Shown: piece by piece, positions 1-46,835 of the stretch
Numbering within the stretch: the stretch's first letter is position 1
Layout: each line of letters begins with the position of its first letter
Source: a virus
Length of the DNA stretch: 47,380 nucleotides
Virus record (IMG/VR): IMGVR_UViG_3300017917_000934
Span: 1-47,380 of that record
Strand: one strand, 5' to 3'
Position numbers and translations under genes: made by a program
Notes under the pieces: generated by a model
What the model saw: the letters and a program-made list of their open reading frames with translations, nothing else
The model's database searches: none
What the model was told of the DNA's origin: nothing

Positions 1-1016
1 AAGTCAACTAGGTTAGAGACATCACCACCGTTAGCACGGTCTAGGTTACTACGACCATATGCTACACCAAGTTTAGTCTTGGTAGGCAATACGTATGTAC
101 CTTGTAGGTAGAAACCATCGCTTTCACGACGACTACCGTTAGCATCTACACCGTTAGCACCAAATAAGGTTGTACCAGCACCTTTACCGTTGTAGTAGTA
201 TGCTGTAGCACCCAATGGACCAACATTGGTTGTGCCACCGATGTCCCAAGCGTAGGCTGTGTATGTACCTGCTGTTTCTGAGTTAACTTTGTAGTTAGCA
301 GCACTAGTCCATAGTTTACCTGTAACACCTGCTACGTTGTAGTCATAGTTAACTTTACCTTCGTAACCAAAGTTGTCTTGATATAAATCATTATTACTTG
401 TTTGGTTAGGATTAGTAATAGCCACTGTTGCACTTAGGCCGTTCCAGTTAGGTGTTGTGTAGGCAATTTGACCTTTCCATGCTGGATAGATGTAGCCACT
501 ACCAATACCACCTAAGGTTGTTGTAGCACCACTAATACCAGCGCCTGCACCAACGCCTAACAATGTCATGTCGTTCAAGATAGCATCACTACCAAATACA
601 CCTAAGTCTTTACCTAGTTTTACACTACCCCAACTACGATCACCAAAACTTACGTATGCTTGACGATTCAATGGAGCCAGTTCATCACCTGCTCTTGAGT
701 TATCGCTAACATTAGGTTGGAAACTGATTGTAAATTCTATGTCTAAATCATTTTGACGTGATTTACCAGTAAAACCTAACCATGATGGTAACAAACCAGT
801 ATTGATGCCACGTGCGTGACTATTGCCTTGAGCATCTTGCTTAGTAGCGATGCCGCCAACAATGTTGTTGTTATCTTTTGCATTTGTTACAGAAGCATAA
901 GCATTAACGTTACCGTTAATGTCTAATGTCCATTCACCTGCCGGAATAACAATGCCAGCGTTTGCTGTTGAAGCAAACAAACCTGCCATTAAAGTTGCTA
1001 ATAAAAACTTCTTCAT
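1..1016 (-). CDS. Outer-membrane porin, 3' end outside window (partial)
   Basis: A reading frame open from the ATG at 1016 to the window edge (338 codons, no stop) encodes a secreted beta-barrel protein. Residues 1-20 are a signal peptide (MKKFLLATLMAGLFASTANA, cleavage expected after ANA). The mature part alternates short beta-strand-like segments with Gly/Asn/Asp-rich turns. It contains porin-type stretches such as SWGSVKLGKDLG near residue 150 and TKLGVAYGRSNLDRANGG at the edge, as in the Gram-negative general porin family (Porin_4 type). It would form a diffusion channel in the host outer membrane. A good Shine-Dalgarno (AGGAGA) lies 10 nt before the ATG, with both sigma70-like and late-type promoter motifs further upstream. 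Established precedent: lambdoid phage PA-2 encodes the Lc porin. Family is confident; the in vivo role is inference. Confidence 0.85.
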   Translation of the reverse strand, partial: MKKFLLATLMAGLFASTANAGIVIPAGEWTLDINGNVNAYASVTNAKDNNNIVGGIATKQDAQGNSHARGINTGLLPSWLGFTGKSRQNDLDIEFTISFQPNVSDNSRAGDELAPLNRQAYVSFGDRSWGSVKLGKDLGVFGSDAILNDMTLLGVGAGAGISGATTTLGGIGSGYIYPAWKGQIAYTTPNWNGLSATVAITNPNQTSNNDLYQDNFGYEGKVNYDYNVAGVTGKLWTSAANYKVNSETAGTYTAYAWDIGGTTNVGPLGATAYYYNGKGAGTTLFGANGVDANGSRRESDGFYLQGTYVLPTKTKLGVAYGRSNLDRANGGDVSNLVD

Positions 1017-1068
1017 TACTTTAGTTCTCCTAAAAATTGGATTAACACCAAATAGTGTTATACTATTA

Positions 1069-1097
1069 AGTGTAATTTATTTATTGATAAAAATCAA
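1069..1097 (-). promoter_or_regulatory. Possible sigma70 promoter of the porin gene
   Basis: On the minus strand TTGATT (1092-1097) and TACACT (1069-1074) are separated by 17 nt. Both boxes match the consensus at 4 of 6 positions. A start near 1062 would give a leader of about 46 nt ending in AGGAGA before the ATG at 1016. Confidence 0.4.
1078..1085 (-). promoter_or_regulatory. Late-type promoter octamer AATAAATA (porin)
   Basis: Reads AATAAATA on the minus strand, one step from the GATAAATA octamer that precedes virion genes in this genome. It lies 61 nt before the porin ATG and inside the sigma70-like promoter spacer, so the porin may be transcribed both early and late. Confidence 0.35.
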
Positions 1098-1121: not shown

Positions 1122-1156
1122 TTCTAATAAAGTGTGGCATCTCTGCCACACTTTTT
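1122..1156. terminator. Bidirectional intrinsic terminator after ahcY
   Basis: A perfect 11-bp inverted repeat, AAAGTGTGGCA / TGCCACACTTT (1129-1139 and 1144-1154), has a TCTC loop. A T-run follows on the plus strand and a weaker TTTATT on the minus strand. The stem abuts the ahcY stop codon (1155-1157), separating the omega-ahcY operon from the porin. Confidence 0.8.
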
Positions 1157-2444
1157 AGTAACGATAGGTATCAGTCTTGTAAGGACCTTGGATTGGAACG
1201 TTGATATACTCTGCTTGTGCAGGAGTAAGTTCAGTTAGGTGTGCACCAATTTGTGTTAAGTGCAGTTTTGCAACCTTTTCATCTAGATGTTTAGGTAATA
1301 AGTACAAATGACCAACGTTGTAGTTTTCCCAGTTGTTATACATTTCAATCTGTGCTAACACTTGGTTAGTAAAACTGTTACTCATAACATAACTAGGATG
1401 TCCTGTAGCACAACCTAAGTTTACTAAGCGTCCTTTGGCTAGTAAGATAATACGCTTGCCGTCTGGGAATATCACGTGATCCACTTGTGGTTTGATTTCT
1501 TCCCACTCGTATTGTTCTAAACTGGCAACATCGATCTCACTGTCAAAGTGTCCAATGTTACAGACAATGCTATTATGTTTCATCTTAGCCATATGCTCGT
1601 GTGTAATAACATTGATATTACCTGTAGCAGTTACAAAGATGTTAGCATGTTCTGCGGCAAAGTCCATGGTAGTTACATAGTAACCTTCCATAGCAGCCTG
1701 TAGGGCACAGATAGGATCAATTTCTGTAATCCAAACACGTGCACCTAGGCCACGTAGACTTGCGGCTGAACCTTTGCCTACATCACCATAACCTGCTACC
1801 ACAGCAACTTTACCAGCAATCATACTGTCAGTAGCACGTTTGATACCGTCAACTAGACTTTCACGACAACCATATAAGTTATCAAACTTAGTTTTAGTTA
1901 CACTGTCATTAACGTTGATAGCACGCATTTTAAACTCGCCTGCGGCAATAGCATCGCGGATCTTGTGTATACCTGTGGTTGTTTCTTCTGTAACACCAAT
2001 GATGCCCTCTAATAGACCAGGATGATGCTTGTGTATGTACCATGTTAGATCATGGCCATCATCTAAAATCATGTTAGGACGCCAGTCATCTGGGCCGTGT
2101 AGAGTCTTTTCAATACACCACCAGTATTCTTCTTCAGTTTCACCTTTCCAAGCAAACACAGGCACTCCTTTAGCAGCCAAGTATGCGGCCGCATGATCCT
2201 GTGTTGAGAAAATGTTACAACTTGACCAGCGTACACTTGCACCCAAGGCAATTAGTGTGTCGATTAATACTGCTGTTTGAATAGTCATGTGTAGACTACC
2301 TGCAATACGAGCACCTGCTAGTGGTTGATCCTTGGCATATTCTTCTCTAACTGACATTAGGCCAGGCATTTCTGTTTCTGCGATTGCTACTTCTTTACGA
2401 CCCCACTCAGCAAGGCCTATGTCTTTTACTTTGTAATCTGCCAT
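1155..2444 (-). CDS. ahcY: Adenosylhomocysteinase (S-adenosyl-L-homocysteine hydrolase)
   Basis: Hydrolyses S-adenosylhomocysteine, the inhibitory product of SAM-dependent methylation, to adenosine and homocysteine using bound NAD. The 429-residue protein has the family signatures in order: LHMTIQTA near residue 51, [13 protein letters not shown] near 75-86, EETTTG at 153-158, the [13 protein letters not shown] active-site segment at 177-189, GYGDVGKG (NAD Rossmann loop) at 218-225, and the C-terminal YRY. It is shorter than most bacterial enzymes, which carry an insertion of about 40 residues, and matches the compact form. The normally conserved DDGGD reads DDGHD. The start is preceded by AAGGAC. 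It is the last gene of the omega-like operon, with a strong terminator at its stop. AhcY is a housekeeping enzyme, so its presence in a phage is unusual. Confidence 0.95.
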
Positions 2445-2651: not shown

Positions 2652-2891
2652 TTACTTAATTTTATTTAGATATTCTTTACCAACTTTACCAGAAGCAATA
2701 TCACACAATGCTTCTACAACTGGTTTATTTTCATACTTCATTTTAATACCATTGCGATCATGAAAAATGCGTTGGTTGGCTAATTCTCGTGCTCTGGCCG
2801 CGGCGCCTAAGATCAAATAAAATCGATTACCGCCAAACGCTTCTAAACATTTGTCAATGTCGACTTTTTCAACTGAAGTTTGTGCTTTCAT
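2652..2891 (-). CDS. RNA polymerase omega-subunit-like protein
   Basis: The 79-residue protein resembles bacterial RpoZ, which wraps the C-terminus of beta' and aids RNA polymerase assembly. The core IDKCLEAFGGNRFYLILGAA followed by ARARELANQR aligns with the E. coli omega segment around [22 protein letters not shown]. The later NKPVVEALCDIASGKV aligns with KTTVIALREIEEGLI. Length is close to cellular omega (about 80-90 aa). It is the first gene of an operon with ahcY, preceded by AAAGGAAT and a canonical sigma70-type promoter, so it should be made early. It may join or displace host omega in the polymerase. The homology is read by eye. The function in polymerase takeover is inference. Confidence 0.8.
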   Translation of the reverse strand: MKAQTSVEKVDIDKCLEAFGGNRFYLILGAAARARELANQRIFHDRNGIKMKYENKPVVEALCDIASGKVGKEYLNKIK

Positions 2892-5430: not shown

Positions 5431-6166
5431 TGCGTTCTATATCATCCTCACCACAATAGTCGCCATACTGTATTTCTACTATGCGGCAAGGTTTATCGTA
5501 GGGGTTGTGTAGTCTATGCCATAGTTCTGACAATATATGATAGTTGTCGTGCTTGTTTAATTTTTTGTAACCGTTGTCAAACTCTACTACACAGGCACCT
5601 TCACTGACATGCCAATATTCAGCACGTTCATAATGTTTTTGCATTGTAAGTGTCTGCCCAGGATTGATTGTAAGTTCTTTTACTTTGGTGCCCTGTACAT
5701 CATGTAGCACACGATAGTAACCCCAAGGACGTTCTGTCTTAGGTGCTTTCCATTCTTCTAGTATCCAACTACTTGAATTTATCTTATTCTCACCGCCAAC
5801 GCCAAACACAAACTCAACATCCTGCTCAGTCATTTCTGGAATGTTTTCTTTAGTGCGATCACCGCCGTTAGCAAAGATAATTTGACTGTTAGGGTACATA
5901 GCCTTAACATTACGTATTGCCTCACGTGCGCTACCGTCATTATCGTTAAACAATATGCAATGGTCAACCATTTTAAGATTTTGAATAATAGTAATACGTT
6001 CATTGCTGGGCATGAACGCACGACCTTTTTTACGTTCTAACCAACTGTCGCTGTTTACACCTACAACCAACATATCGCCTAAACGTTTGGCTTCATTAAA
6101 GTAGGCAATGTGCCCACTGTGCAGGGGATCAAATCCACCTGTTACCAACACAACTCTATTAATCAC
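5426..6166 (-). CDS. Cytidylyltransferase-like (HldE-C type) and cupin fusion
   Basis: A two-domain protein of 246 residues. Residues 1-140 begin VINRVVLVTGGFDPLHSGHI with the HxGH motif (16-19) of the nucleotidyltransferase superfamily, closest in style to the adenylyltransferase half of HldE (ADP-heptose synthesis). Residues from about 146 (RPWGYYRVL, then a strand-rich region around H178 with ERAEYWHVSEGACVVEF) form a cupin as in type II mannose-6-phosphate isomerases. The start chosen is GTG at 6166, because the nucleotidyltransferase core begins right there. An AGAAAGAG-like site lies upstream, and the GTG overlaps the methyltransferase stop within GTGATTAA. An upstream ATG (6232) would add 22 residues unlike the family. 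A role in nucleotide-sugar synthesis is likely; the exact sugar is unknown. Confidence 0.8.
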   Translation of the reverse strand: MINRVVLVTGGFDPLHSGHIAYFNEAKRLGDMLVVGVNSDSWLERKKGRAFMPSNERITIIQNLKMVDHCILFNDNDGSAREAIRNVKAMYPNSQIIFANGGDRTKENIPEMTEQDVEFVFGVGGENKINSSSWILEEWKAPKTERPWGYYRVLHDVQGTKVKELTINPGQTLTMQKHYERAEYWHVSEGACVVEFDNGYKKLNKHDNYHILSELWHRLHNPYDKPCRIVEIQYGDYCGEDDIERR

Positions 6167-7067
6167 GGCGATAACTCTTTCTAGTTGGGGGTTTACTTCT
6201 AATAGGCATTGGTTTAAATGTTGGAGTAGCAACTTCTGTGGTGTTGGGCTGTTCTATAGTATGCTGATCAGAATGTATTACTTCGTCTGGGGATACACCT
6301 GTAGATTCAGTTGCAGGCGGAGTCTCCATACGCTGACTCAAATAATCAACAAAATACAGTTCTTTGTTTAACCACGGCATACAAATTTCTTCTTGTTTTA
6401 CGTATCCATTAGAATTTAAACTGTCAACAATACTAGGATGTAGTAGATTTAGTTCAGCCAGATCAAACCAACTAGTGGTACTTGGATCCATTGGCTGTAT
6501 GTCACTTTTGTAAGTGGCTATTTGAATCCAAGGATCATTGAATTGTTTTAGTAGGTAAGCATCACGGCAATCAAATCCATTGACTGCTAACATGTATAAC
6601 AGCATTAGCGGATTGTAATGATAGATACAGTTATTATATCCGCGACTGTATTGTTTAAAGTATTCTATACCAGTATGTTGCGGCACTGTTAAAACTAACA
6701 TACCATTGGTGTTCATGTAACTGTTCCACATACGTAAAGTATGCAGAGGATTTGCGCTATACTGTAGACTATCGTGTGCCCAAATAAAGTCTACCGGTAC
6801 AGGAAATAAGTCCACAGCATCATAGTTGTTATTAAACTTAAATATGTTTTTTCGAGTTGGCACATGGTTTAGTTTACTAGCATCACGGTCAACTGCATAA
6901 ACAGAAAAGTTATATGGCTGTGGCGGGTCTTCGTTGTTCATCAACGTTGCCCACCAATCCGTATCTTCACCAGTACCACAACCCATATCTGCAATAATTT
7001 TTAAACTTTCTAAAAAAGTATCGTATTGCTGAATTAAGTTAAGAATGCTTAGGCTACGTCTATCCAA
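6159..7067 (-). CDS. Class I SAM-dependent methyltransferase
   Basis: The 302-residue protein has methyltransferase motif I IIADMGCGTGEDTDWW at residues 24-39. An acidic motif II end (YAVDRD) lies near 57-62, then WAHDSLQYSANPLHTLRMWN and NGMLVLTVPQH in the post-motif strands. The C-terminal 60 residues are Pro/Thr-rich and end in a basic tail, probably disordered. The start is the TTG at 7067: no ATG precedes motif I, and a strong GGAGG lies 9 nt upstream inside uvsY, so translation is coupled to uvsY. It lies between recombination and nucleotide-sugar genes. The substrate is unknown; a glycan or small molecule is more likely than DNA because no target-recognition region is seen. AhcY would recycle its SAH by-product. 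Confidence 0.8.
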   Translation of the reverse strand: MDRRSLSILNLIQQYDTFLESLKIIADMGCGTGEDTDWWATLMNNEDPPQPYNFSVYAVDRDASKLNHVPTRKNIFKFNNNYDAVDLFPVPVDFIWAHDSLQYSANPLHTLRMWNSYMNTNGMLVLTVPQHTGIEYFKQYSRGYNNCIYHYNPLMLLYMLAVNGFDCRDAYLLKQFNDPWIQIATYKSDIQPMDPSTTSWFDLAELNLLHPSIVDSLNSNGYVKQEEICMPWLNKELYFVDYLSQRMETPPATESTGVSPDEVIHSDQHTIEQPNTTEVATPTFKPMPIRSKPPTRKSYRRD

Positions 7068-7515
7068 CTGATGCGTCCTCCATACCTGCTGTACGCAGGC
7101 GGGTAATATGCCCTAGCATAAAGTTCTTGCTTTCTAATCCTTTCATAATGCCTAACCATTTATTACGCAGTAAGGCCACTTCGTTAATGATAGTTTCCAT
7201 ATCAATAACTTCATCTTCTGCTTCTGCGTATTTTTCAGCATCACGACTAGTTAGTGCTCGATTGTATGCTTCAAGATATTTCTTATAATGCTTTTGACGT
7301 ATTTTTCTTAGTTGTATGTTGAGATAATTAAGCACTGCTTCAATCTCTTGTAATTGATTAAAGCGGTGCTCTGTTATGCCAGGTAAATTGGCTAGATTCT
7401 TTTCAATATTACCATAAGTACCTACTTCTTTTTTAGCCTGTGCAAGTTCATTCTCATAGTGTTCTATGAAGTCAGGAATATGACCTAGGCTTGCAACAAC
7501 GCGGCTATACCACAT
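7060..7515 (-). CDS. uvsY: UvsY-like recombination mediator
   Basis: T4 UvsY loads the UvsX recombinase onto gp32-covered single-stranded DNA. This 151-residue protein (T4 UvsY is 137) is almost entirely helical. It contains the conserved run LPGITEHRFNQLQEIEAVLN then YLNIQLRKIRQKHYKKYLEA and YNRALTSRDAEKYAEAEDEV typical of marine T4-like UvsY, and ends with a segment including IMKGLESKNFMLGHITRLR. Its ATG overlaps the stop of the 80-aa gene (TAATG), and its own 3' end carries the Shine-Dalgarno of the methyltransferase gene. Its partners uvsX and gp32 lie upstream in the same transcription direction, separated by acquired genes. Confidence 0.88.
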   Translation of the reverse strand: MWYSRVVASLGHIPDFIEHYENELAQAKKEVGTYGNIEKNLANLPGITEHRFNQLQEIEAVLNYLNIQLRKIRQKHYKKYLEAYNRALTSRDAEKYAEAEDEVIDMETIINEVALLRNKWLGIMKGLESKNFMLGHITRLRTAGMEDASVG

Positions 7516-7757
7516 TAGTAGTTGTCATCCTCATCTTCATCGTAATCAGGCTCTTCAACTTCTTCACCTAAGTACTCTTCAACAGCACGTTTTAAATAAC
7601 TGTCAGTTCCACCAACAGCAATTAGGTCTCGCTCTAAGATGTTGTGATCTGCAACAACACTGACCAGATGATCAGCCGCTGCTTGACGATCTTTAGGGTT
7701 AATATACTCTTTACAAGTTAACCAAACTTCACTGACTACATCAATTTCTATACTCAT
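7515..7757 (-). CDS. Conserved hypothetical acidic protein (80 aa)
   Basis: Not assigned a function. The N-terminal 60 residues are helical with WLTCKEYINPKDRQAAADHL and ERDLIAVGGTDSYLKRAVEE, a pattern I associate with small proteins next to recombination genes in marine T4-like phages. The C-terminus is strongly acidic (EEPDYDEDEDDNY), a feature shared with proteins that compete with or mimic nucleic acid. The ATG overlaps the radical SAM stop (ATGA) and the gene's stop overlaps the uvsY start (TAATG), so it is translated as part of the coupled chain. A role in regulating recombination is inference from position. Confidence 0.65.
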   Translation of the reverse strand: MSIEIDVVSEVWLTCKEYINPKDRQAAADHLVSVVADHNILERDLIAVGGTDSYLKRAVEEYLGEEVEEPDYDEDEDDNY

Positions 7758-9268
7758 TCTGCTGATCCCTTTTCCTTTTTTAATTTAAGTATTTCAAGTA
7801 AATTGTGCTCAATATACAAAAGATCCATTTCTGACCTTTTATATTTTAACTTAGTTGTTAATTCGATTAATTCAATGAATCTTCTCCATTTTACTTTATT
7901 AGTTAGTCCAGGATTAGTTGATACTACCCAATCAACATTTAATGCAATATCTTCTTTAAGATGTAACCCTAATTCATCCTGCATATTATATAAAGGTGTG
8001 TCCTTGATTACTACCAGCGGGGAATTTAAATTTGTACCAATTATTGTATTATCTATTAAATATTTTTGATTTTTAATAAAAAAATTTATTGTTTCCTGAT
8101 GATCTTGCTCTGTTTCGGTTACATACGCTGTAAACATTAATAAATGATTTTTAATTTTATATTTAGAACACATTTCAAAATGATAATCAATGTCCTCATT
8201 TGAAAATTTCTTCCCCATATGCTCTCTTACTTTTTCGCTACCAGATTCTATTCCTATCTGAAGATGATCACAGCCTGCTTTTTGCATTAATTCAAACATT
8301 CGTTCTGGATGAAATTGCTTAGGCCTAATAATAAACTGTCCTTGAAATTTTAATTTTTTAAAATCAGGATATGTATCTTGTAAGTCAATTATTTTTTCTA
8401 ATAATTCAGTAAATTGTTTTATTGAACCGTTAATCAAACTGTCCGAAAATGCGTAATTAATGCAGCCAACATCGATATAATTTTTAATCATTTCATTTAA
8501 AATCGACTGCGCTGGGCGATATCTATATTTTTTCCAAATAACACCAACATCACAAAATGAACATCTACGTACACATCCTCTACTGCCGTTAATCAACAAT
8601 TCAATACTGTTTTCAGAAATACCAGACATATGACTTTTGTATTTGCCTAACGGAATTTTTTTATAACTAGGCAACGGCACCTGAGATAAGTCATCGATTT
8701 GAGGTACCCAATAATCTGTCAGTTGAGTTTTATCATTTACTCCAAAATCAATCTTTCCATCTAAGAAATTTCCAAAAACAAAATCACCCTCACCTCTTAC
8801 ATAGTAATCTATTAGATCATCAGATGCTAGTATTTTTCCTGTAGAATCATCTTTTTTGTATTTTACACTTATTCCGGGACCACCAGCAATTATTTTAGTT
8901 TTACTACGTTTTCTAAATTCTTTTAAGAATTTTTTTGTCCAAGCAAATTGCATAGTACTAAACATGGTTAATGCCATTAAATCAAAATTTATTTTAAGAA
9001 TGTCGTCTATTGCCAAAGAGATTGCATGATCAATCTTTTGCTTTACTTCTTCGTCAGGATAAAAGTCTATATCATCATACGCATTCATTGAGTCAGTAAT
9101 TCTAATATATTCACTATAACTAAAATGATAATATAAAAAAATGTTTAAGTCAAATACTTCATAAGCCACATTTTTTTCTTCGCATATACCGGCTAATAAA
9201 GCCATCGGCGAAGTTGGCCTTTCAATGGTAATAGGAGCAGAAGATACAATCATTACTTTTTTGTACAT
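7754..9268 (-). CDS. Radical SAM enzyme with N-terminal B12-binding-like fold
   Basis: The 504-residue protein has the radical SAM cluster signature CxxxCxxC as GCVRRCSFCDVG (C232, C236, C239), which binds a 4Fe-4S cluster and cleaves SAM to start radical chemistry. Residues 1-170 resemble the Rossmann-like domain of B12-dependent radical SAM proteins (VMIVSSAP at the start, KIIAGGPG at 125-132, YYVRGEGD at 155-162). The cobalamin-binding DxHxxG motif is absent, so B12 may not be bound. Later strands include LQIGIESGSEKVREHMGK, another family hallmark. It is AT-rich like its upstream neighbour, unlike uvsX. It sits between uvsX and uvsY, coupled to the 80-aa gene by ATGA. Substrate unknown; methylation or rearrangement of a sugar or lipid is possible. 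Confidence 0.85.
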   Translation of the reverse strand: MYKKVMIVSSAPITIERPTSPMALLAGICEEKNVAYEVFDLNIFLYYHFSYSEYIRITDSMNAYDDIDFYPDEEVKQKIDHAISLAIDDILKINFDLMALTMFSTMQFAWTKKFLKEFRKRSKTKIIAGGPGISVKYKKDDSTGKILASDDLIDYYVRGEGDFVFGNFLDGKIDFGVNDKTQLTDYWVPQIDDLSQVPLPSYKKIPLGKYKSHMSGISENSIELLINGSRGCVRRCSFCDVGVIWKKYRYRPAQSILNEMIKNYIDVGCINYAFSDSLINGSIKQFTELLEKIIDLQDTYPDFKKLKFQGQFIIRPKQFHPERMFELMQKAGCDHLQIGIESGSEKVREHMGKKFSNEDIDYHFEMCSKYKIKNHLLMFTAYVTETEQDHQETINFFIKNQKYLIDNTIIGTNLNSPLVVIKDTPLYNMQDELGLHLKEDIALNVDWVVSTNPGLTNKVKWRRFIELIELTTKLKYKRSEMDLLYIEHNLLEILKLKKEKGSAE

Positions 9269-9269
9269 T

Positions 9270-9788
9270 TTACAATTTATCCAAGATTTCTTTAATCTGT
9301 TTTAATTTTTCTTTTTCTATATTCACTTTATCATAATATAGCATATTTGGCGGATTGTATTTTTCTTCTAATAAAATTTTTTCGTGTAGTATCCAATCAA
9401 TTATAGGGGTATAAAATTTTATTGACCATGTTCCATTAACTCCAAACCACATGGCTGATTTATATTCTTCTCCGTTAAATGAATATACTCCTGAATATTT
9501 TATAAATTCAGGAATCTCTATATTATCAATGTAAATATTTTTAATTTCTAAAAATTGTTCTTGTAATACTTTATTTTCAGATTTTGAAAACAATACATTT
9601 TTATTTGTTTTTCCATAAAACTCAATTGATAACGTATGTTCTCCTTCTAATAAATCAAGAGGAATCGATACAGTCTCCTCTTGTTTACTGAAATAATAGT
9701 CGTGATATATGTCATTATCTAGTAGAATTCTGGCCTTAGGCCATCCGTTATATTCGCCACAGTTGAAATCTATAGATAATGTATTCAT
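9270..9788 (-). CDS. Beta-rich hypothetical protein (172 aa)
   Basis: Not recognised beyond a general pattern. It starts with NTLSIDFNCGEYNGWPKARI then LLDND, and continues with LLEGEHTLSIEFYGKTNKN, NIYIDNIEIPEF and MWFGVNGTWSIKFYTPIIDW. This looks like a beta-sandwich of the carbohydrate-binding type, followed by a C-terminal helix of about 20 residues. I associate the G-x-W-x-I-K-F-x-x-P-I-x-x-W element with accessory proteins of marine phages. The ATG overlaps the uvsX stop (TAATG). It is markedly AT-rich, like the radical SAM gene that follows after 1 nt, so the pair may have arrived together. Sugar binding is a guess from the fold. Confidence 0.6.
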   Translation of the reverse strand: MNTLSIDFNCGEYNGWPKARILLDNDIYHDYYFSKQEETVSIPLDLLEGEHTLSIEFYGKTNKNVLFSKSENKVLQEQFLEIKNIYIDNIEIPEFIKYSGVYSFNGEEYKSAMWFGVNGTWSIKFYTPIIDWILHEKILLEEKYNPPNMLYYDKVNIEKEKLKQIKEILDKL

Positions 9789-10858
9789 TATTCTTCAATA
9801 CCTTCCTCTTCAACTGATTCGACTGAATTTAACAGTTTAGCATTACTACTTATTTCTCGCATAACTGTATCTAAACAATTTTCTTCATTTGATTCCCATG
9901 CTTTACGGAACTGTTTGATTTCTACTCCGTCTGCTGTTTTGTACATTAGTCGATTACCATCTTTAACTAACAGGCCTTTGGCTTCTAACATATCAGTTAA
10001 GCCGCTGTATGGATTCATACCTGTATCATATGGGATCTTTACCTGTACACTTTCAAATGGTTTGGCATATCTGGTTTTCATAATCTTACAACTGGCACGA
10101 ATACCACGCACTTCTGAAATCTTGTTGCCATCTTCATCTTCTTTAAGTTTGAGTTTCTTCATAGCAACTACAATACTCGAAGCATAGATAAAGCCTTGAC
10201 CACCTGAAATCTTGTCATCTGGATCAAACATATCCTGACTAGCGTAGGTGTGATTAGTTGCTACTAGCCCAATATTTAGATTACCAAACATATTTACACA
10301 ATTACGAACAAGTGCTGTCAGTGCTTTGGGTTTACGACCCATATCGCCCTTTAAATCACCTGCTTCAAACTGATTAACGTCTGTTGGTGTTAACATCATG
10401 CCCAAACTATCTAAAACAAATAGTACTTTTGGGCGTTCTTCTACTGGTAGTGTTTTGTATTCTTTAACAAAGTCGTTGATAATTTTTGCTACGTCATCAA
10501 TCATTGCTACATTTAGTTTAAGTAATTTGTTTTCGCTAGTATCAACCCCTAAGGCTTTTAACCAATCTTCATCAAGGGCATTTTCTGTGTCAACCAGGAT
10601 AACATAAATGTTTTGCTCTTGTGCGTTCTTAATTAAGTTACCTGAACAAATATAACTTTTGCCTGCGCCACTTTCACCAGCAAATACTGTTACTTTGCCT
10701 AGGGGAATGCCCTTGTTAAAGTCGCCGCTGATAAGATAGTTAAGTGTATAGTTACCGGTGCTGACCCAATCTGTTGGATCGTTGAAACCAATTCCTAAAC
10801 CGTCAATGCTCTTTGTGATGTTTTTTCTAAATTTACTTACGTCAAATGGTTTTGCCAT
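9788..10858 (-). CDS. uvsX: UvsX, RecA-like recombinase
   Basis: UvsX forms ATP-dependent filaments on single-stranded DNA and drives strand exchange and recombination-dependent replication. The 356-residue protein shows Walker A GESGAGKS (61-68), the RecA-type catalytic segment VDTENALDEDWL (about 89-100), Walker B VLFVLDSLG (145-153) and an L2-like region with GDMGRKPKALT and ISGGQGF. T4 UvsX is about 390 residues. The C-terminus is acidic (VESVEEEGIEE), as expected for RecA-type regulation. AAGGAG precedes the ATG. It follows a glycosyltransferase-like gene by 11 nt and starts a tightly coupled chain that continues to uvsY. Confidence 0.95.
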   Translation of the reverse strand: MAKPFDVSKFRKNITKSIDGLGIGFNDPTDWVSTGNYTLNYLISGDFNKGIPLGKVTVFAGESGAGKSYICSGNLIKNAQEQNIYVILVDTENALDEDWLKALGVDTSENKLLKLNVAMIDDVAKIINDFVKEYKTLPVEERPKVLFVLDSLGMMLTPTDVNQFEAGDLKGDMGRKPKALTALVRNCVNMFGNLNIGLVATNHTYASQDMFDPDDKISGGQGFIYASSIVVAMKKLKLKEDEDGNKISEVRGIRASCKIMKTRYAKPFESVQVKIPYDTGMNPYSGLTDMLEAKGLLVKDGNRLMYKTADGVEIKQFRKAWESNEENCLDTVMREISSNAKLLNSVESVEEEGIEE

Positions 10859-11876: not shown

Positions 11877-12893
11877 CTAGGATGTCTTTTGACGGTTACG
11901 AATCATCGCAAGGATGTCTTCAGCACGTTGACTACCTGCTGCTGGTGTAGCAACTGGCGCAGTAGGTGCTGTTGGTGCTTCTGCTACTGGAGCATCTGCT
12001 TCAAACGGTACGTCATCTTCTGCTACAGGTGTTGGTGTTGTTGCAGGAGCCGCTTGTGCTACTGGTGTTGCTTGAGGAACAGCACTGCCTGCTGGTGCGT
12101 TAACGCCACGTGGACGATAGTATGCACCCCAACGTTCTGTGTCATATGCTTGACCATCCACTGATGCTTCAAACATTTCTTTAATGACTTTTAGTTCAAC
12201 ATCGCTTGGTTTCTTAGGAAGGAATTCGCTAAGATTGTACAAACCATGACTGTCAATAGCCGCTTGCTCATCTGCTGTTAGTGCAGATTCTTTACGTGAC
12301 CATTTGCTAGTGCTGTAGTCAGCATAGCCGCCTTTACTTGTTTTAGTAATAGTAAAGTCTAGACCGCCTTGATAGTCTGTTGGTAAGTTCTCTAGTTCTG
12401 GATCCATTAGAGCCGCTTTGATCAAGTTAAAGATCTGTGGACTAATAATGAAACGACGAATTGGGTTTGATGGTGTTTGGTCATCTGCTAAAGCATTTTC
12501 ACGTACAAAACCCTGGAACAAGTATGATTTTTTCTTCCAATACTTACGACCCATTTCTTCTAATGCTGGATCTTTAAACCAAGTACGCACCTCAGCAAGT
12601 ACAGGACATGCTTCACCATACATTTCCACACATGGAACTTGTACAGTTACTGGTTTACTATCTGGTTGACCTTTAACACCCGCAAAGGTTAAGTTGATCA
12701 TTAAACGTTCAGCCCAAAAGAAATCATTCTTTGTGTTGCCGTCTGGTAAAAATCTAACTCTTGCTGATGTGCCTTCTGGAATATTCCAGTGAGCGTAGAT
12801 AGCGTTGTCTCCACCGCCTTGTGATTGTCCGCCTTGACCGCGGTTCTCTTGTGCTTGTAATTTTGCGCGAATTTCTGCTAATGATGTTGCCAT
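11877..12893 (-). CDS. 32: gp32, single-stranded DNA-binding protein
   Basis: T4 gp32 coats single-stranded DNA in replication, recombination and repair. The 338-residue protein begins with a short helical region (ATSLAEIRAKLQAQ) for cooperative self-contact, then an OB-fold core with WNIPEGTSARVRFLPDGN, FFWAERLMINLTFAG and VPCVEMYGEACPVLAEVRTW (C88, C96 where T4 has its zinc loop). This is followed by a long Ala/Pro/Thr-rich linker (about 265-320) with acidic patches, and a final helix EDILAMIRNRQK. This is the usual marine T4-like layout, longer than the 301 residues of T4. TAGGAGAA precedes the ATG. Transcription can start from a promoter combining an early -35 and a late octamer (12967-12995). 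Confidence 0.92.
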   Translation of the reverse strand: MATSLAEIRAKLQAQENRGQGGQSQGGGDNAIYAHWNIPEGTSARVRFLPDGNTKNDFFWAERLMINLTFAGVKGQPDSKPVTVQVPCVEMYGEACPVLAEVRTWFKDPALEEMGRKYWKKKSYLFQGFVRENALADDQTPSNPIRRFIISPQIFNLIKAALMDPELENLPTDYQGGLDFTITKTSKGGYADYSTSKWSRKESALTADEQAAIDSHGLYNLSEFLPKKPSDVELKVIKEMFEASVDGQAYDTERWGAYYRPRGVNAPAGSAVPQATPVAQAAPATTPTPVAEDDVPFEADAPVAEAPTAPTAPVATPAAGSQRAEDILAMIRNRQKTS

Positions 12894-15315: not shown

Positions 15316-16887
15316 TTACATTATATAAAATGGCATAGGCTCAACAATATCTTCTAGGCTATCTTTCATAGTATAGTCTAACTGACTGTCAAAACTCTGC
15401 AAAACTTGTGCCATACGCACTATAAGCAACATACTCATAACCAAGTCATCTGTTTCGCCTGGTTTGGCCGCAAAACTAGCGTTATGCGCAACAAAGGTTT
15501 TTAGTTCAGATATAAGACTACGGCTTACTATAGTCATACGCTTGCTTTCAATTAGATTTTTTAGTTTAGCACAGGCGGCTATTTTTGATTTATTTGTAGT
15601 ATTGAATCCTTTGCGGAATCTACGACCACCCGAACTCATATTTCTAGGTTCACTTAAGAATATACCACGTATGTTTTCTTCACCTATTTCTGCTACACAA
15701 ATTAGTGCGGCTTCTCCTACTGTGTTGTTTTCTATTGAGTAGTAGATATTGTTTTGATTTACTGTTTCACTGATGTATTTGGTAATTTCTGTAAGTATAC
15801 CTACTTGCTGTTGTATGGGTGTGCGATTATGTTGCCACTCTGCTACCTGGCGGAATGTAGGTAATTCAAATACTTGAATACCTGCAGGGTCGCCACCAGT
15901 ACCTAAACTAGGGTCTAAGGCCACTGCGTAAGTGTATTGTGGTTCTGGCTTTTTATACCAGCGTACATGCCCTTGGCGTTCTATAGGATCTATGCCTGCC
16001 ATTTCAACTAAATGACTAGGATTGATTAGTGTTTCATCCCAAATAATAGATTCACAATCCCTCTCTCGACGGAAACGTTCATCACCTAATTGCGCACGTT
16101 GCTGTTCAGCCCACTTGTCATCACGATCTGGGTGCTCTTTCCAGTAACTTCTAAATGCTTTGAATCCATTTATACCTATTTCTGTAGGCTCACCATACTC
16201 ATCTACGCATTTGTTGGCGCCTTTCCATAGGGTAGCAAACTGGTCTTCATCACTGTTAGGTGTTGAAGTAATAATACATTTACCACCAGTTGCTAGTGTG
16301 GGACTAATAGAGGTCCAAAATTCTCGTCCTATGGTAGGGCGAACGAACGCAAACTCGTCACAGTATAGTAATGATATAGACATACCACGACCTGTGTTTT
16401 CTGTTGTTGTAGCACTTACTATACGACTACCATTATCAAAATCGATACTACCTTTGTTATAACTCACAGCACCTGCACGTATAAAGTCTGGTACGCTTTC
16501 ATAAGCGTAACGAATACGTTGCATGATTTCTTGTGAGCCTGTATATTTGTGTGCGGCAATTAGAATAGTTGAATCAGGCACAAACATGGCGTACCATAAT
16601 AGGTATCCTGCGGCTGACGTTGACTTACCTGTTTGCCGGGGCATTAGCGATATGCTATAGCGATAGTTATGATATGTATGGATTAAGCGTTTTTGATAGT
16701 CAAAGGGTTCATACAGCATACGTCCTTTTGTAGGGTGTTGTATGTAAAAGTAGTTACTCATAAAATATTCTGGACCTGTAACAGGATCCGAACACTTTAC
16801 GAATTCTTGTATTTGTGCCTGAGTAAAAGCCGTTTGCGTATGTGGCTTTTTAACTAAGACGTTATCTGTACCTTTTGCTGCTGCCAT
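15316..16887 (-). CDS. 17: gp17, terminase large subunit
   Basis: The packaging motor: an N-terminal ATPase translocates DNA into the prohead and a C-terminal nuclease cuts the concatemer. The 523-residue protein shows Walker A MPRQTGKST (82-90), Walker B SLLYCDEFA (D177, E178), the coupling motif TSTPN (207-211), and RNase H-like nuclease residues in ALDPSLGTGGDPAG (D325), IENN (E386) and GETDDLVMS (D480, D481). T4 gp17 is 610 residues; the N-terminus is shorter here. The start at 16887 has no Shine-Dalgarno but has TATAAGTA exactly 5 nt upstream. The small subunit gp16 is not adjacent, being five genes upstream. Confidence 0.95.
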   Translation of the reverse strand: MAAAKGTDNVLVKKPHTQTAFTQAQIQEFVKCSDPVTGPEYFMSNYFYIQHPTKGRMLYEPFDYQKRLIHTYHNYRYSISLMPRQTGKSTSAAGYLLWYAMFVPDSTILIAAHKYTGSQEIMQRIRYAYESVPDFIRAGAVSYNKGSIDFDNGSRIVSATTTENTGRGMSISLLYCDEFAFVRPTIGREFWTSISPTLATGGKCIITSTPNSDEDQFATLWKGANKCVDEYGEPTEIGINGFKAFRSYWKEHPDRDDKWAEQQRAQLGDERFRRERDCESIIWDETLINPSHLVEMAGIDPIERQGHVRWYKKPEPQYTYAVALDPSLGTGGDPAGIQVFELPTFRQVAEWQHNRTPIQQQVGILTEITKYISETVNQNNIYYSIENNTVGEAALICVAEIGEENIRGIFLSEPRNMSSGGRRFRKGFNTTNKSKIAACAKLKNLIESKRMTIVSRSLISELKTFVAHNASFAAKPGETDDLVMSMLLIVRMAQVLQSFDSQLDYTMKDSLEDIVEPMPFYIM

Positions 16888-23642: not shown

Positions 23643-26600
23643 TTACTGAATCGTTAAAGCCGCGCCAGTGTTTTGTAAACGTACTGGAATATAGATAAAC
23701 TCAATTGCTTTAACTGGTTGTATAGCAATATCAACCCATAACTCATTAGCATCAATACGTGCTGGTGTGTTATTTGTTGTATCACACACTACCAAGAAGT
23801 CATAGATACCACGTTTAGCAACTAAGTCGTTAAACACTGCATCAAATGCTGCTTTAACTTGATTACGTGTAATAGTATCGTTTGGTTCAAATATAAACGG
23901 TGCAGCCACTTGTGCTAATACTGTACGTAGGTAAACTACTAAACGTGCAACGTTAATTCTATCTAGTGCAGAAGTTTGGCTGTAACGTGTTTTTTGACCG
24001 TATACTACTAAACCAACACCTGGTAATACAGTGAACGGATTAACGTCATTTGCGTACAAGATATCACGTAGACCGTTAGTTACACCAATACTTACGTAAG
24101 TATTGTCGTTGTTTCGATCAATGTAACCAATGCTTGACACGTTGTCAATTACACCACGACGTACACCTGCTGGTGCAAACCACGGATAACTTACTGCATC
24201 GCTACGAATAAGTGTACGCAACATGATGTGAGTTGGTGGAACAACTACACTGTTACCGTCTAAGTTAGTTGCTAAACCACTTGGATAGTAAACACCTAAG
24301 TATTCACTACGGCTCACTAGACCTTCTTCGCCATTATCTGCGGCCAAGTTAGCATTACTTGCCCAAGCATTTAATCCTGTGCTGTCAGATGCTAAATCCA
24401 TTGGAGTATCACCAAGGATAAATGCTGTGTTTAGACGATCGTTATTTAAAGTGATCATGTCTTGGATCAACTCTGGATAACCTGGTGTAGCAATTACGTT
24501 AAACTGTGTAGCCTCTTCACGTAGTGCAGTGCTAGAAGCAATAGCAGCCTTCATAGCCTCAACTACAGTATTACGTTGTGCTTTGTAACCAAAGTATGGA
24601 ACGCCTGTTGTTGGGTCTTCACCGCTGAAACTTACCCACGCATCTGCTTCTGTTGCACTTACTACAGCCAACTCAGCGTCTGTAAAGTAATTTGCTTTGA
24701 AGCGTTTTACGTTATAACCACTACGACGTGTGTTAAACAATAATGTACCGCGAGCGTATAGTTGGAAATCAGGTGCATCTGGATCTAAGTGATCACTTGT
24801 TAACAAACTAGTAATTGTCGGCAATGTATCTGTAATGATGTTTAAGTTGCCTGTAGCAGACCAACGTGCATCTGCAAACAAAATACCATCTGAACTGTCA
24901 TTGTCTGTATTATCAATTAAGTCCCAGGTTGTACCGTTGTAACGATATAGTACTGGGAAGTTAGCCAAATCACCTGTGTCAATCCAAAGGTCACCTGGAA
25001 CTAATTGACTGCTACCATCGCTTTGTGTAACTGGTTGACTAGCACTCATAATTACACCGTTAGGATCAGTATTAGTAAGATCATAACCGCGTGCATCGTT
25101 GCTTACGTTTTGATAACCTTTCCAACCTGTACCATCGTGCATCATAACATCAACTTCAGTAGGATCACTGTAGTACCACATTGTATTTTCTGCAGGATTG
25201 CTGAACGGAGCAGTATCACCATAGAAATATGTCAACGGTGTCCAAGGACTTGCTAGGTAAACAGCGCCTGCGGACAATGTTTGCACTTTATTATCAGTTA
25301 ATAATCCTGAAGTTGCCCATGGTGTACCTACTAGGTTTGTAATTTGGATTGTGCCGCCTGCTAAGTGACGTACAAAAATTTGTCCGCTTGCATTAAAGCC
25401 GGCAGTAATGTTTGGTAGTCCTGCACTTAAAATACTAGCAACAAACGCACTAGCAGTTGTACCTGTAATTGTACAAGTAGCATTTGCTAAAGTTGCACTG
25501 TTTGGCACACTTACATCTAAACGGAAACTGTCATTGTTAGTATAAGTTGCGCTACCACCTGCTACAGTACCAGTAATTGTCAAAATACCTGTTACATTTT
25601 TAATATATGGTCTAAAAGACAGTGTATCTGATGCTTGTGAGTCATATTTTACATATAATGCACCAGCGGCTAATCCAGCGCCGCCAGCAATAGGATCTAA
25701 ACCGTTAATTGCTGCAGCATCATTTAGATATAACGGTGCACTTAACTGTGTCCATGTTTCTGTATTAGCACTGTATTCTTTAATTGCCCAGTTAGCACCG
25801 TTGCCACGTGCTGATGTTTTTAACCAAATACTGTCGTTTGGGCGAGGTGTTACGTCTGATCGTCTCCAAGCCGGTTCATTTGTGTTTAGTGCAAATGATA
25901 TAGTTGGACCATTGTAAGTGTATGTGTTACCACCATTGGAAATAGTTGCAAAACTAACAGTTGATGATAGCAAACCTAAGTTAGCCACACAGTCAACGTT
26001 ACTACCTAATAACACATTACCTCTAGTAATTGTTAGAGTACCGTCTGTACTTGTTGCAGTATCAATAACACCGCGTAAATTACCTGCTGCGTTACTATAT
26101 AAAATTGTTGCGCCATTTGCAAAAAGTTCAATTTGATTTGTTGCGTTAACACGAGCACTTACGCCAGGTAATGTTGCCGCATTAATTGCACTAACCGCAG
26201 AACTAACTGTAGTACCACTTACTGTAACAATGTTACCGTTAATAATAATCTTACTACCAGCAGTTAGTGTTGGGCTTGCGGCAGAACCTGTAGCAGTTGG
26301 TACATATGATTTCCAATCATCGCTACCAACTAATGCCCACTCATTGTCATAACCTTTGTAATAAATTGGGTTGCTAGAACTTGTAGCAACAACCGCGTAT
26401 GTACCTACAGCACCAAAAGTATTTGCAGGAACGCCGTTTACAACATAGTCAGTATCTGTTATAACTGTGATGCTTTGTGCTTGGAATCCTTCTTCCCAGT
26501 TCCAAGCATACACACCCCAATTAGTATTACCAGTGTCTAACCAGTAAGTTCCATCTGTTGGTTCACCTGTTGGGCGTGTACTTGTTCCTTCTAATTCTGA

Positions 26601-26948
26601 AAGATTTACGTTAGCACGTTGTACATATAATGTATTTGTTACACCCAACGCTGAATAAGCGGCTAACAAACCGTATTCATTTAATTGGCTACCATTAACT
26701 GGATTACCTGCGGCATCAGTTTCAAAGAACGGATTACCAAAAATGTTAACTAGATCACGTTGACTAGTAATTGTTAGAATTTTTTCTGCGTTAGCAATAG
26801 TTGTACCTGTGGCCAATGTACCACTAGGTGTTAGTTTATCTTGTCCGGTTGCAATCAGCACAAAGGGCACTGTACCTGCTTGTGTAGATACGTACTGGCT
26901 TTGATCAATAATGGTAACTGATACGCCTGGTGAAGTTAATGATGCCAT
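23643..26948 (-). CDS. 18: gp18, tail sheath protein (large, with inserted modules)
   Basis: The sheath contracts to drive the tube into the cell. The protein has 1101 residues against 659 in T4. The ends match the sheath: the start ASLTSPGVSVTIIDQSQYV and the C-terminal domain from about 740 on, including WFAPAGVRRGVIDNVSSIGY, GLRDILYANDVNPFTVLPGV then GLVVYGQKTRYSQTSALDRI, and the final IEFIYIPVRLQNT. Residues about 125-720 are added. They contain four copies of a P-x-(D/E)GT-x-W-x-D-T...Y-x-NG-x-x-W module (near 128-150, 370-400, 585-612, 650-677) and two related beta modules (about 230-300 and 472-545). The insert probably decorates the outside of the sheath. AGAGGAAT precedes the ATG. 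Confidence 0.93.
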   Translation of the reverse strand: MASLTSPGVSVTIIDQSQYVSTQAGTVPFVLIATGQDKLTPSGTLATGTTIANAEKILTITSQRDLVNIFGNPFFETDAAGNPVNGSQLNEYGLLAAYSALGVTNTLYVQRANVNLSELEGTSTRPTGEPTDGTYWLDTGNTNWGVYAWNWEEGFQAQSITVITDTDYVVNGVPANTFGAVGTYAVVATSSSNPIYYKGYDNEWALVGSDDWKSYVPTATGSAASPTLTAGSKIIINGNIVTVSGTTVSSAVSAINAATLPGVSARVNATNQIELFANGATILYSNAAGNLRGVIDTATSTDGTLTITRGNVLLGSNVDCVANLGLLSSTVSFATISNGGNTYTYNGPTISFALNTNEPAWRRSDVTPRPNDSIWLKTSARGNGANWAIKEYSANTETWTQLSAPLYLNDAAAINGLDPIAGGAGLAAGALYVKYDSQASDTLSFRPYIKNVTGILTITGTVAGGSATYTNNDSFRLDVSVPNSATLANATCTITGTTASAFVASILSAGLPNITAGFNASGQIFVRHLAGGTIQITNLVGTPWATSGLLTDNKVQTLSAGAVYLASPWTPLTYFYGDTAPFSNPAENTMWYYSDPTEVDVMMHDGTGWKGYQNVSNDARGYDLTNTDPNGVIMSASQPVTQSDGSSQLVPGDLWIDTGDLANFPVLYRYNGTTWDLIDNTDNDSSDGILFADARWSATGNLNIITDTLPTITSLLTSDHLDPDAPDFQLYARGTLLFNTRRSGYNVKRFKANYFTDAELAVVSATEADAWVSFSGEDPTTGVPYFGYKAQRNTVVEAMKAAIASSTALREEATQFNVIATPGYPELIQDMITLNNDRLNTAFILGDTPMDLASDSTGLNAWASNANLAADNGEEGLVSRSEYLGVYYPSGLATNLDGNSVVVPPTHIMLRTLIRSDAVSYPWFAPAGVRRGVIDNVSSIGYIDRNNDNTYVSIGVTNGLRDILYANDVNPFTVLPGVGLVVYGQKTRYSQTSALDRINVARLVVYLRTVLAQVAAPFIFEPNDTITRNQVKAAFDAVFNDLVAKRGIYDFLVVCDTTNNTPARIDANELWVDIAIQPVKAIEFIYIPVRLQNTGAALTIQ

Positions 26949-38000: not shown

Positions 38001-40087
38001 TATAGTAGTGGATCTTGAACCGTAATTAATTGTTCTGTCACACCAAAGATATTACTTGCATAGATGTTGCCGCCTATCCAAAGGTCTTTGGCAATACTTG
38101 CACCACCTGCAATTCTTAACGCACCGCTAGAACCTGTTGGTTCAGTAGCGTTTGTGGTATTGGTTATAGATGTTATGCCACCCACAGTAACAGTATTATT
38201 AAACTGTGCTGCACCTGCTGAGGTTATAGAACCCGCAATATTTGCATTTCCAGAAACACTAATGCCGCCATTAGGTACTACAATAGCACCTGTACCCTGT
38301 GTTGTTGTTGCTATACTTGCATTGGCCCATAAATTATTATTAACACCTAGTATACTTAAAGTACCAGTAGCACCTAATATATTACCAGTTACGTTTAAGA
38401 AGCCAGTTACTGACTCATTACCATTTACAGTTAAAGCATTAAACACACCAGCAGTCGCTAGTACGTTACCTGTAGTATTAAATTGACTTGCTGTAACTAC
38501 AGCGGCCATTACGTTGCCAGTTACGTTTAAGAAACCAGTTACTGATTCATTACCATTTACAGTTAAAGCATTAAACACACCAGCAGTTGCTAGTACATTA
38601 CCTGTAGTGTTGATCTGGCCAGCATTTAGTTGTGCTGTGCTTATGTTACCACTTGTATTAATATAACCTGTGGAATTTATAGACCCAAATGAGCCTTGAG
38701 CAGCCATCACGTTACCGCTGGTATTGAAGTATACTGCGCCGCCCGATGATGACTGTGTTATGTTACCTCTTACAGTGTGAAATGCTCCTCCTACTGCACC
38801 TACTGTACCAATGTTTAAATTGCCAGCAATACCTGTACCACCTGCAATAATTACAGCACCAGTACCAGTGGTTGTTGATGTAATTGAACTGTTTGCATAA
38901 ATTACACCAGTTGCTTCAATGCCGCCAACATCAGCAGTAAGAGCAATAATATTGCCACCTACATTTAAGAAGCCAGTTACAGTTTCATTACCGTTAACGG
39001 TTAATCCAGATAGAGTTCCTGCGGCACCTAAGATGTTACCTGTTACATTTAAGAAACCAGTTACCGTTTCATTGCCATTAACAGTTAGTGCATTAAATGT
39101 ACCAGCAGTTGCTAGTACGTTACCTGTAGTGTTAATTTGACCAGCATTTAATTGTGCTGTCATTACGTTACCGGTTACATTTAAGAATCCAGTTACTGAC
39201 TCATTACCGTTAACTGTTAGTCCAGACAGTGTACCTGCAGCACCTAAAATATTACCAGTTACATTTAAGAAACCAGTTACTGACTCATTACCGTTTACTG
39301 TTAATCCGTTAAATACACCGGCTGTAGCAAGTACATTACCGGTAGTATTAATTTGTCCTGCATTTAATTGTGCTGTGCTGATATTACCTGAGGTATTAAA
39401 ATATCCTGTTGATGTAATACCACCGTTAACTGTTAGTGCGTTGAATGTGCCTGCGGCCGCTAATACGTTTGCAGATAAGTTTATGCTTGCACCAACGTAA
39501 GTTGCACCTACATTACCAAATAATGAAGCACTGACATTACCAAATACCACATCATCTGCTGAAAGATAATTTGTAATTACTGTGCTAGCAAGTAGGTTAC
39601 CTGATAAATTTAGACTTGACGCAGTAATCGCAGAATTAACACTCAACGACCCTGCACGAATTGCATAATCAACGCCAATGTTACCAACGTGTAAGTTAGC
39701 GAAATTGCTGGCTACAACGTTACCATATGTTGTACCAGTTTCTGTTGTACCTATTAAGCGGAATTCTTTAAATGGTTCAGCCCATACTATGGCTTGATTT
39801 TGATCAGTACCTCTGTTTAGTACGAGACCAATGTCACGATTGTTTGTGCCGCTGAATCCATTGTTTAGTGTTACTAGTGGATCGTTAACGTAAGTGTTTG
39901 TACTAGCAATAGTAGTATAAGCACTAGTACCTAAAACAAACAAGTTACCTGAAATGAGTAAGTCACCGGGAACTGTAACGTTACTTGCAAATAAACTACC
40001 TGTGATTGACCCTGGGGCAATTTTTTGATAACCTATAATAGTTGCATTATAGATTTGATTGTTAAAAATTCGGGTTAAAGCCGCCAT
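35057..40087 (-). CDS. Very large repetitive tail fibre protein (1676 aa)
   Basis: A long fibre built of short beta repeats rich in Gly, Asn, Thr, Ala and Val. Residues 25-130 form an N-terminal module (LISGNLFVLGTS...TNTYVNDPLVTLNNGFSGTN) also present in the 222-aa protein, probably the attachment end. Then come many units of the type LTVNGNE(S/T)VTGFLNVTGN (seven copies), AQLNAGQINTTGNVLA (five copies) and TSGNISTAQLNAG. Near the C-terminus lie MIRFNTTIQNMEFYDGSQWQ, an NGVVQFPTLAYSV module and a final domain shared with the 482-aa protein. It likely forms a trimeric beta-structured shaft with a receptor-binding tip. A leader of 107 nt with octamer CATAAATA precedes it; GCGGAG is the ribosome site. 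Confidence 0.88.
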   Translation of the reverse strand: MAALTRIFNNQIYNATIIGYQKIAPGSITGSLFASNVTVPGDLLISGNLFVLGTSAYTTIASTNTYVNDPLVTLNNGFSGTNNRDIGLVLNRGTDQNQAIVWAEPFKEFRLIGTTETGTTYGNVVASNFANLHVGNIGVDYAIRAGSLSVNSAITASSLNLSGNLLASTVITNYLSADDVVFGNVSASLFGNVGATYVGASINLSANVLAAAGTFNALTVNGGITSTGYFNTSGNISTAQLNAGQINTTGNVLATAGVFNGLTVNGNESVTGFLNVTGNILGAAGTLSGLTVNGNESVTGFLNVTGNVMTAQLNAGQINTTGNVLATAGTFNALTVNGNETVTGFLNVTGNILGAAGTLSGLTVNGNETVTGFLNVGGNIIALTADVGGIEATGVIYANSSITSTTTGTGAVIIAGGTGIAGNLNIGTVGAVGGAFHTVRGNITQSSSGGAVYFNTSGNVMAAQGSFGSINSTGYINTSGNISTAQLNAGQINTTGNVLATAGVFNALTVNGNESVTGFLNVTGNVMAAVVTASQFNTTGNVLATAGVFNALTVNGNESVTGFLNVTGNILGATGTLSILGVNNNLWANASIATTTQGTGAIVVPNGGISVSGNANIAGSITSAGAAQFNNTVTVGGITSITNTTNATEPTGSSGALRIAGGASIAKDLWIGGNIYASNIFGVTEQLITVQDPLLYLTASNTFPYTYDIGVFSQFVGPDPVTGTGNAYQHTGLVRDASDYTWKFFSNVRAEPTATVPFNADTIYDPLLAGNLRLTYTQAATSTTTGALQVAGGAGVAGTVVAAQLNSTGNVLGQAGTFNALTVNGGITSTGYFNTSGNISTAQLNAGQINTTGNVLASTIITNYLSADDVVFGNVSAAVFGNVGATFTGASINLSGNVLAAAGTFNALTVNGNETITGFLNVTGNVLASTVGASFLTASTVAVGNIAAVNFGNTGATFTGASINLSGNVLAASGIYNYLDVNGNVDLGLLGAISGSWVNVIGNITQSTSGGAVYFNTAGNVMASQGSFGSINSTGFINTSGNISTAQLNAGQINTTGNVLASTVRASFLTASTVAVGNISAVTIGNSGATITGTIGAFSGNVIGGLAQFAAINATPIGNATASTGSFTDLRASGTLWANAATDSTTTGIGAIVVPNGGISASGNINVVAGKQFIVGQDLVGEVFLPQATAQFFSNINGYSQVNQQNISTGTGASSDFIATSSNGNDSTNYIDFGINGINYNQAAYGITKANDGYLYVQGNTAVSGGNLVIGVATAPNDIIFFLGSTESTAEVARFDGNVGTNGNLRIRYATTSTSTTTGAFQVVGGVGIGGNLRAGGGAVFNSGQTADPFQVRGVATTSLIYADTAQGAVIIGGSNVAPQLGSTLKINGVDSLLLPVGSTGQRPGATGNIDVAGMIRFNTTIQNMEFYDGSQWQTAGSVFTVVSSRQFSGNTAGGFGNVDGTNTTFTLQANSTTAGTIVSINGVVQFPTLAYSVSGTTLTFTEPPAPDDVIDARVLTTTSTVSSLANGNGLQQFIASDTALEFWSGVSATTKQAQINKVGDFEFLTGGKTTYTQTATNIAANNTPYVIATYSQTAYTTAKFLISAKRGTTNFQSMETMVTADGQGNAFVTTYAVVSNGVEMGGVTANVVGSNVQLYWTTTTNITNANVKAMGTFIV
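37318..39310 (-). repeat. DNA repeats within the fibre gene
   Basis: A unit of about 50 bp, beginning (plus strand) near AYRTTTAAGAARCCAGTTAC and continuing into TCATTACC, recurs at about 37322, 38390, 38520, 38957, 39045, 39175 and 39260. It is interspersed with a second unit (ATTTAATTGTGC type) of similar size. The copies encode the LTVNGNE(S/T)VTGFLNV and LNAGQINTTGNVLA peptides and are near-identical in DNA, so they could recombine and change fibre length. Confidence 0.8.
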
Positions 40088-40171
40088 GTATGACTCCGCA
40101 TTAAATTATATTTTCTACACTATAATTGCCTGCGGTTCCATGTTCCCCTTAGGCTAGATGTGTCTTTAGTG

Positions 40172-40179
40172 TATTTATG
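40172..40179 (-). promoter_or_regulatory. Late octamer CATAAATA (fibre gene)
   Basis: CATAAATA on the minus strand lies 84 nt before the fibre ATG at 40087. The leader contains a 7-bp inverted repeat (AATTATA / TATAATT, about 40105-40128) upstream of GCGGAG. Confidence 0.5.
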
Positions 40180-40194
40180 CGAATTTTTAGAAAA

Positions 40195-46757: not shown

Positions 46758-46827
46758 TTGTTTTCTCCTTATAAATGGCGTTCTAGGCCTACGCGGTGGG
46801 TGCCGCATAAGTTCATATGAACAATAA

Positions 46828-46835
46828 TATTTATC
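46828..46835 (-). promoter_or_regulatory. Late promoter octamer GATAAATA (217-aa gene)
   Basis: An exact GATAAATA on the minus strand lies 70 nt before the ATG at 46757. The leader includes a palindrome GTTCATATGAAC (46811-46822). Confidence 0.65.

Follow-up and report, generated by a model that had tools for sequence, protein, structure and literature searches.

PA-2-type phages carry the Lc porin, and PA-2 itself is a lambdoid phage that infects E. coli. Here, we have analysed a virus record of 47,380 bases (the window, meaning the whole stretch) with a porin gene at its first end, which an earlier note, made from the sequence alone, had likened to the porins of PA-2-type phages. The likeness holds in that both are general-diffusion outer-membrane porins encoded inside a phage genome. 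The window phage, however, is not lambdoid but T4-like (sheath, tail tube, UvsX, terminase) and probably has a methylotroph host, so that the comparison stands as an analogy only.

By description, the window phage resembles VP_139 and VP_266 from Lake Baikal, T4-like phages of Methylophilaceae that carry methanol dehydrogenase and SAM-cycle genes (PMC7678222). The T4-like type, the probable host family, the SAM-cycle and radical SAM genes and a cytidylyltransferase are held in common, and the methanol dehydrogenase of the Baikal phages has a counterpart in a relative of the window, L007. The main text on the Baikal phages makes no mention of a porin. In cyanophages, which are likewise T4-like phages with a host-derived phosphate-acquisition gene, PstS is a familiar finding (PMC10976474, PMC3686209). 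Relatives of the window also encode a PstS family protein and differ from the cyanophages in adding outer-membrane porins to it; no Pho box was found upstream of these genes when a CTGTCAT-type repeat pair was sought, and the Methylophilales form of the box may differ. Porin folds have already been predicted in uncultured tailed phages, as in the BFVD entries A0A6J5L4P1 (OmpC-like) and A0A8S5S2G8 (Porin O and P), whose identity to our phage porin in structural alignment is 15% and 13%, respectively.

Neither a phage porin nor a methylotroph phage with auxiliary genes is new in itself. In the open-access papers searched, we found no description of a phage porin together with OprP or PstS, of repeated capture or of a retained leader, and these features are apparently new. 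Our main reading, to which we give a probability of roughly 0.55, is that a large T4-like phage of freshwater Methylophilaceae bears, among its accessory genes, one for a general-diffusion porin of host origin that would aid solute influx.

A porin gene in a T4-like phage genome

The features of the window on which the argument draws are as follows.

3–1016, minus strand: 5' part of the porin gene (ORF and PF13609 match), signal peptide 1016–957 and mature barrel 956–3, truncated at the window edge
1027–1031, minus strand: ribosome-binding site AGGAG
1078–1085, minus strand: T4-like late promoter motif AATAAATA
1069–1097, minus strand: sigma70-like early promoter, TTGATT (1097–1092), 17-nt spacer, TACACT (1074–1069), overlapping the late motif
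1129–1154: perfect inverted repeat AAAGTGTGGCATCTCTGCCACACTTT between ahcY and the porin gene, probable ahcY terminator
1155–2444, minus strand: ahcY, S-adenosylhomocysteine hydrolase (TIGR00936, 616.6 bits; cluster c1), the usual porin neighbour in relatives
9788–10858, minus strand: UvsX-like recombinase (phrog_97, 5.3e-71)
11877–12893, minus strand: single-strand DNA-binding protein (phrog_1192, 4.7e-69)
15316–16887, minus strand: terminase large subunit, a phage hallmark (sequence match)
23643–26948, minus strand: tail sheath, a phage hallmark (sequence match)

The porin ORF starts with an ATG at 1016 and stays open to position 3, so that 338 codons without a stop are cut by the window edge; they comprise a signal peptide and 318 mature residues. 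The N-terminus, MKKFLLATLMAGLFASTANA followed by G, is by inspection a conserved, classical Sec signal peptide with n-, h- and c-regions, and Pfam PF13609 (Porin_4) matches the ORF with an E-value of 1.3e-20 and 74.8 bits (cut-off 27). These results bear out the signal peptide and porin-like barrel read by the earlier note. Profile searches against PHROGs and NCBIfam gave no porin family match, phmmer against the PDB gave no hit at E 0.01, and no relative of the porin was found among the INPHARED phages. Judged by its sequence, the ORF encodes a phage general porin of the 16-strand type.

Scanning viral contigs yielded 20 loci with relatives of the porin (L002–L021); over the shared part, the window copy is 95% identical to L002 and 90% to L003. 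The gene is complete in nearly all of them, with 385–404 residues from an MKK start and a stop after a terminal AILFF; the exception, L005, runs to the edge of its own contig. The earlier note had named a frame broken just beyond the edge as grounds for giving up its claim, and in L002 and L003 the frame reads through to SAGAILFF and a stop. The window copy ends before the C-terminus, while the relatives end in the C-terminal Phe of outer-membrane porins. An AlphaFold2 model of the L003 homologue, built from 40 aligned porins, reached a pLDDT of 82.9 and a pTM of 0.82 (an earlier one from 13 aligned rows was poor, with a pLDDT of 63.7). From its DSSP string we count 16 strands; the third loop (L3) contains a helix, and the C-terminal residue is Phe. 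The model's matches in VIA-align are all porins, led by DcaP (Z 30.2) and followed by PorB, Omp32, OprO, OprP, OmpF and OmpC (Z ∼26–27). The sequences of the relatives show an intact, predicted 16-strand barrel with signal peptide and C-terminal Phe. Moreover, the dN/dS of the phage porins (0.06–0.20) indicates purifying selection, which suggests that the product is used.

The window carries T4-like tailed-phage genes for terminase, tail sheath, tail tube, head closure, UvsX and single-strand-binding protein. The terminase shares 54% identity with its counterparts in PA5oct and other jumbo Pseudomonas phages, and the window is therefore probably part of a large genome. It also encodes a homologue of the RNA polymerase omega subunit (2652–2891, minus strand; TIGR00690, 32.2 bits, cut-off 23.6), with relatives in other loci (cluster c17), and a freshwater-2 RNA of Rfam (46755–46828, minus strand; 57.8 bits, gathering threshold 49.9) at the start of the ORF 46104–46808. 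An array of more than 20 tRNA genes lies upstream of the porin in the phage contig L003 (1–6339).

A gene that lies at the extreme edge of a record and resembles cellular porins could come from a chimeric assembly or from bacterial contamination at the contig end, and a contig joining a bacterial genome here was the other finding that the earlier note held to be fatal. This explanation is already refuted by other contigs. Several independent records have the porin and ahcY on one contig with terminase and sheath; terminase (81–87% identical) and sheath occur with the porin in seven records, the window included. In G008 (177 kb), the porin is interior and accompanied by terminase, sheath and the T4-type capsid protein Gp23. 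G004 and G007, with no terminase or sheath match, carry helicase and ribonucleotide reductase genes of phage type, to which G004 adds one for a virion structural protein. The porin has, in addition, a phage-type leader and late motif. Together with the Porin_4 match and the complete homologues, this genome context upholds the claim of an outer-membrane porin encoded by a phage.

In many porin loci, a block of sugar genes follows. The porin is absent from G140 (201 kb), which keeps ahcY, a phosphoesterase and the sugar block; the same search recovers the porin in four positive-control contigs. Since the terminase of G140 is 90% identical to that of the window, the porin is dispensable. The porin slot of G140 (38986–43473; L215:11987–16474) holds instead a 63-residue ORF and genes for a phosphoesterase, a glycosyltransferase and rubrerythrin.

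Host group and origin of the porins

Relatives of the porin in cellular genomes are nearly all from Methylophilales, and the host is therefore probably a freshwater methylotroph of this order. One contig filed as a Polaribacter MAG (L025) bears a Methylophilales porin and is probably misbinned. The phage porins are ∼45–60% identical over their full length to the general porins of Methylophilales (PF13609; HTCC2181, Ca. Methylopumilus), with which they share the C-terminal AILFF and the conserved L3 region SDAILNDMTLLG. They differ from them in their shorter and distinct signal peptide, their phage promoters and their location in phage genomes.

In the tree, the group of the window (six sequences) falls with OM43, HTCC2181 and one further MAG (support 100/99), a second group of phage porins is found elsewhere among Methylophilaceae porins, and the L018 porin takes a third place on a long branch. 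A single phage clade was rejected by the AU test for all phage porins (p=3.75e-5) as well as without L018 and other long branches (p=1.07e-5). On sequence, the phage porins are thus shown to occupy at least two separate places among Methylophilales porins, i.e. to have more than one origin. Trees alone give no direction of transfer; as the diversity of the cellular porins is far wider, we infer that related viruses captured host porins more than once. By the trees and dN/dS, the phage porin has the marks of an auxiliary metabolic gene, being host-derived and under selection in a virus.

Promoters, leader and barrel

The element TATAAATA is the late promoter element of T4. ATAAATA occurs 14 times in the window, counting both strands, and in 13 of these cases an ORF start follows within 100 nt (binomial p ∼1e-16). 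Because it is nearly confined to such positions, ATAAATA is very probably a late promoter element of the window phage, and its positions would provide a ready-made late promoter map for this phage group. The copy before the porin lies ∼67 nt upstream of the start codon. TAAATA is found 61–81 nt before the porin in all 14 relatives examined, versus two of 18 cellular porins with TAAATA within 100 nt upstream.

The early motif was too weak to be called in a consensus promoter scan; yet a TTGA-type hexamer 17 nt before TACACT recurs 5' of the porin in most relatives with the promoter type of the window, where it likewise overlaps the late motif. Both the early promoter and the element that follows it, TAGTATAACA through to GTGTTA, are conserved in front of porins that occupy three places in the tree. 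The phage-style late and early promoter motifs that the earlier note had seen are thus confirmed, the former by its enrichment before ORFs and the latter by its recurrence. Sites like AGGAGAA or AGAGGAA also precede the porins of relatives. A second promoter type (GTGGC..TGCAACA repeats; L004–L006 and, loosely, L009) was considered as crossing porin groups and rejected, the similarity of L009 being near the shuffled maximum.

A late promoter would suit a passenger or a lysis-related role, in which excess porin disturbs the envelope late in infection. We regard such a role as very improbable, since the loops, L3 and the barrel are conserved as in a functional host porin.

Most phage porins share one promoter, and all 15 phage copies begin with a sequence like MKKxLLATLLAG, whereas the cellular copies with a clear start mostly begin M(N/K)xxxKLAVAGA. 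Between the window and L018, DNA identity amounts to 81% for the upstream region, 83% for the signal peptide and 64% for the mature part; between L015 and L009, which belong to one porin group, the corresponding values are 49%, 89% and 89%. The simplest reading of these sequences is that promoter and leader would be a property of the phage and that the barrel has been exchanged behind them, with convergent leaders as the alternative. We tentatively propose, at somewhat less than even odds, a phage-owned leader cassette of promoter and signal peptide whose barrel has been swapped with those of host porins on more than one occasion. The phage could thereby go on governing expression and export and still renew the channel exposed at the surface. 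Some lineages would have enlarged this cassette to a module for phosphate import from the outer membrane to the periplasm.

Possible benefit during infection

A gene for a phosphate-selective porin (Porin_O_P, OprP) lies just downstream of the porin in eight of the 20 contigs and a PstS gene in five, and a calcineurin-like metallophosphoesterase of one cluster (c7) is present in nine porin loci. Identity between the phage OprP and that of Methylophilaceae genomes reaches 72%, and in two of these genomes the host OprP is near pstS; in one of them, permease genes adjoin pstS. Because of these neighbours, nutrient uptake, chiefly of phosphate, is the most likely benefit, and it is the function towards which, on sequence evidence, we lean slightly. 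On the other side, a porin of the general type points in itself to no substrate, and OprP and PstS were not seen beside the porin in the close relatives of the window with downstream sequence (L003, L004 and L006), the window itself ending at the porin. The nutrient uptake suggested by the earlier note gains circumstantial support from the OprP, PstS and phosphoesterase genes beside the porin in relatives. The net charge of the phage porins, −6 to 0 against a pooled cellular median of −11 (p 9e-7), was discarded as a sign of anion uptake, as freshwater Methylopumilus-type porins are similarly near neutral (−1 to −10) and habitat explains the difference.

We argue that the phage would transcribe the porin during infection and that the Sec and Bam machineries of the host would place it in the outer membrane. 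There, it could sustain or widen the entry of small solutes, of which phosphate is the likeliest, as synthesis of the host porin falls, and relatives may extend the uptake through the adjacent phosphate-selective porin, periplasmic PstS and phosphoesterase. If so, lytic phages would change how permeable the outer membrane is in abundant freshwater methylotrophs, using host parts that are renewed time and again, and phage infection would be tied to phosphate and C1 cycling in lakes. The reading puts a name to the host group and offers a promoter that can be tested and a channel that can be measured.

Alternatively, the phage porin could dilute or replace the host porin used by competing phages and so exclude superinfection, as proposed for PA-2-type porins. 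The early promoter motif would be in keeping with this, and a barrel that differs between host-derived groups behind a constant promoter and signal peptide is expected where selection on the exposed part changes. An S-layer-type protein encoded by the T4-like methylophage Melnitz has been postulated to protect against superinfection (PMC9004378). Nevertheless, the loops of the phage porins are of ordinary length, the proteins are under strong purifying selection, and the OprP, PstS and phosphoesterase neighbours point to uptake, which makes receptor replacement unlikely in our analysis. Shortened loops, considered as a sign of receptor evasion, showed no consistent pattern in the phage porins.

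Uptake through the porin might also serve a general influx of carbon or C1 substrates, the phosphate genes being coincidental neighbours in a shared island of accessory genes. Methylotroph phages with methanol dehydrogenase have been published (PMC7678222), ahcY is a common neighbour of the porin, and an XoxF-type methanol dehydrogenase is encoded directly 3' of the porin in L007. The dehydrogenase, however, is found at one locus only, against OprP in eight of 20 contigs. To our knowledge, methanol requires no special porin, and we think a carbon-centred role improbable beside the preferred uptake of phosphate. The dehydrogenase of L007 (9453–11318) is PQQ-dependent (TIGR03075, 613 bits), has a DYD motif and finds its best PDB match in a lanthanide-dependent XoxF. 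Upstream of the porin, the same locus encodes a FecR-domain protein and a PA14/curlin-repeat protein (5592–7807).
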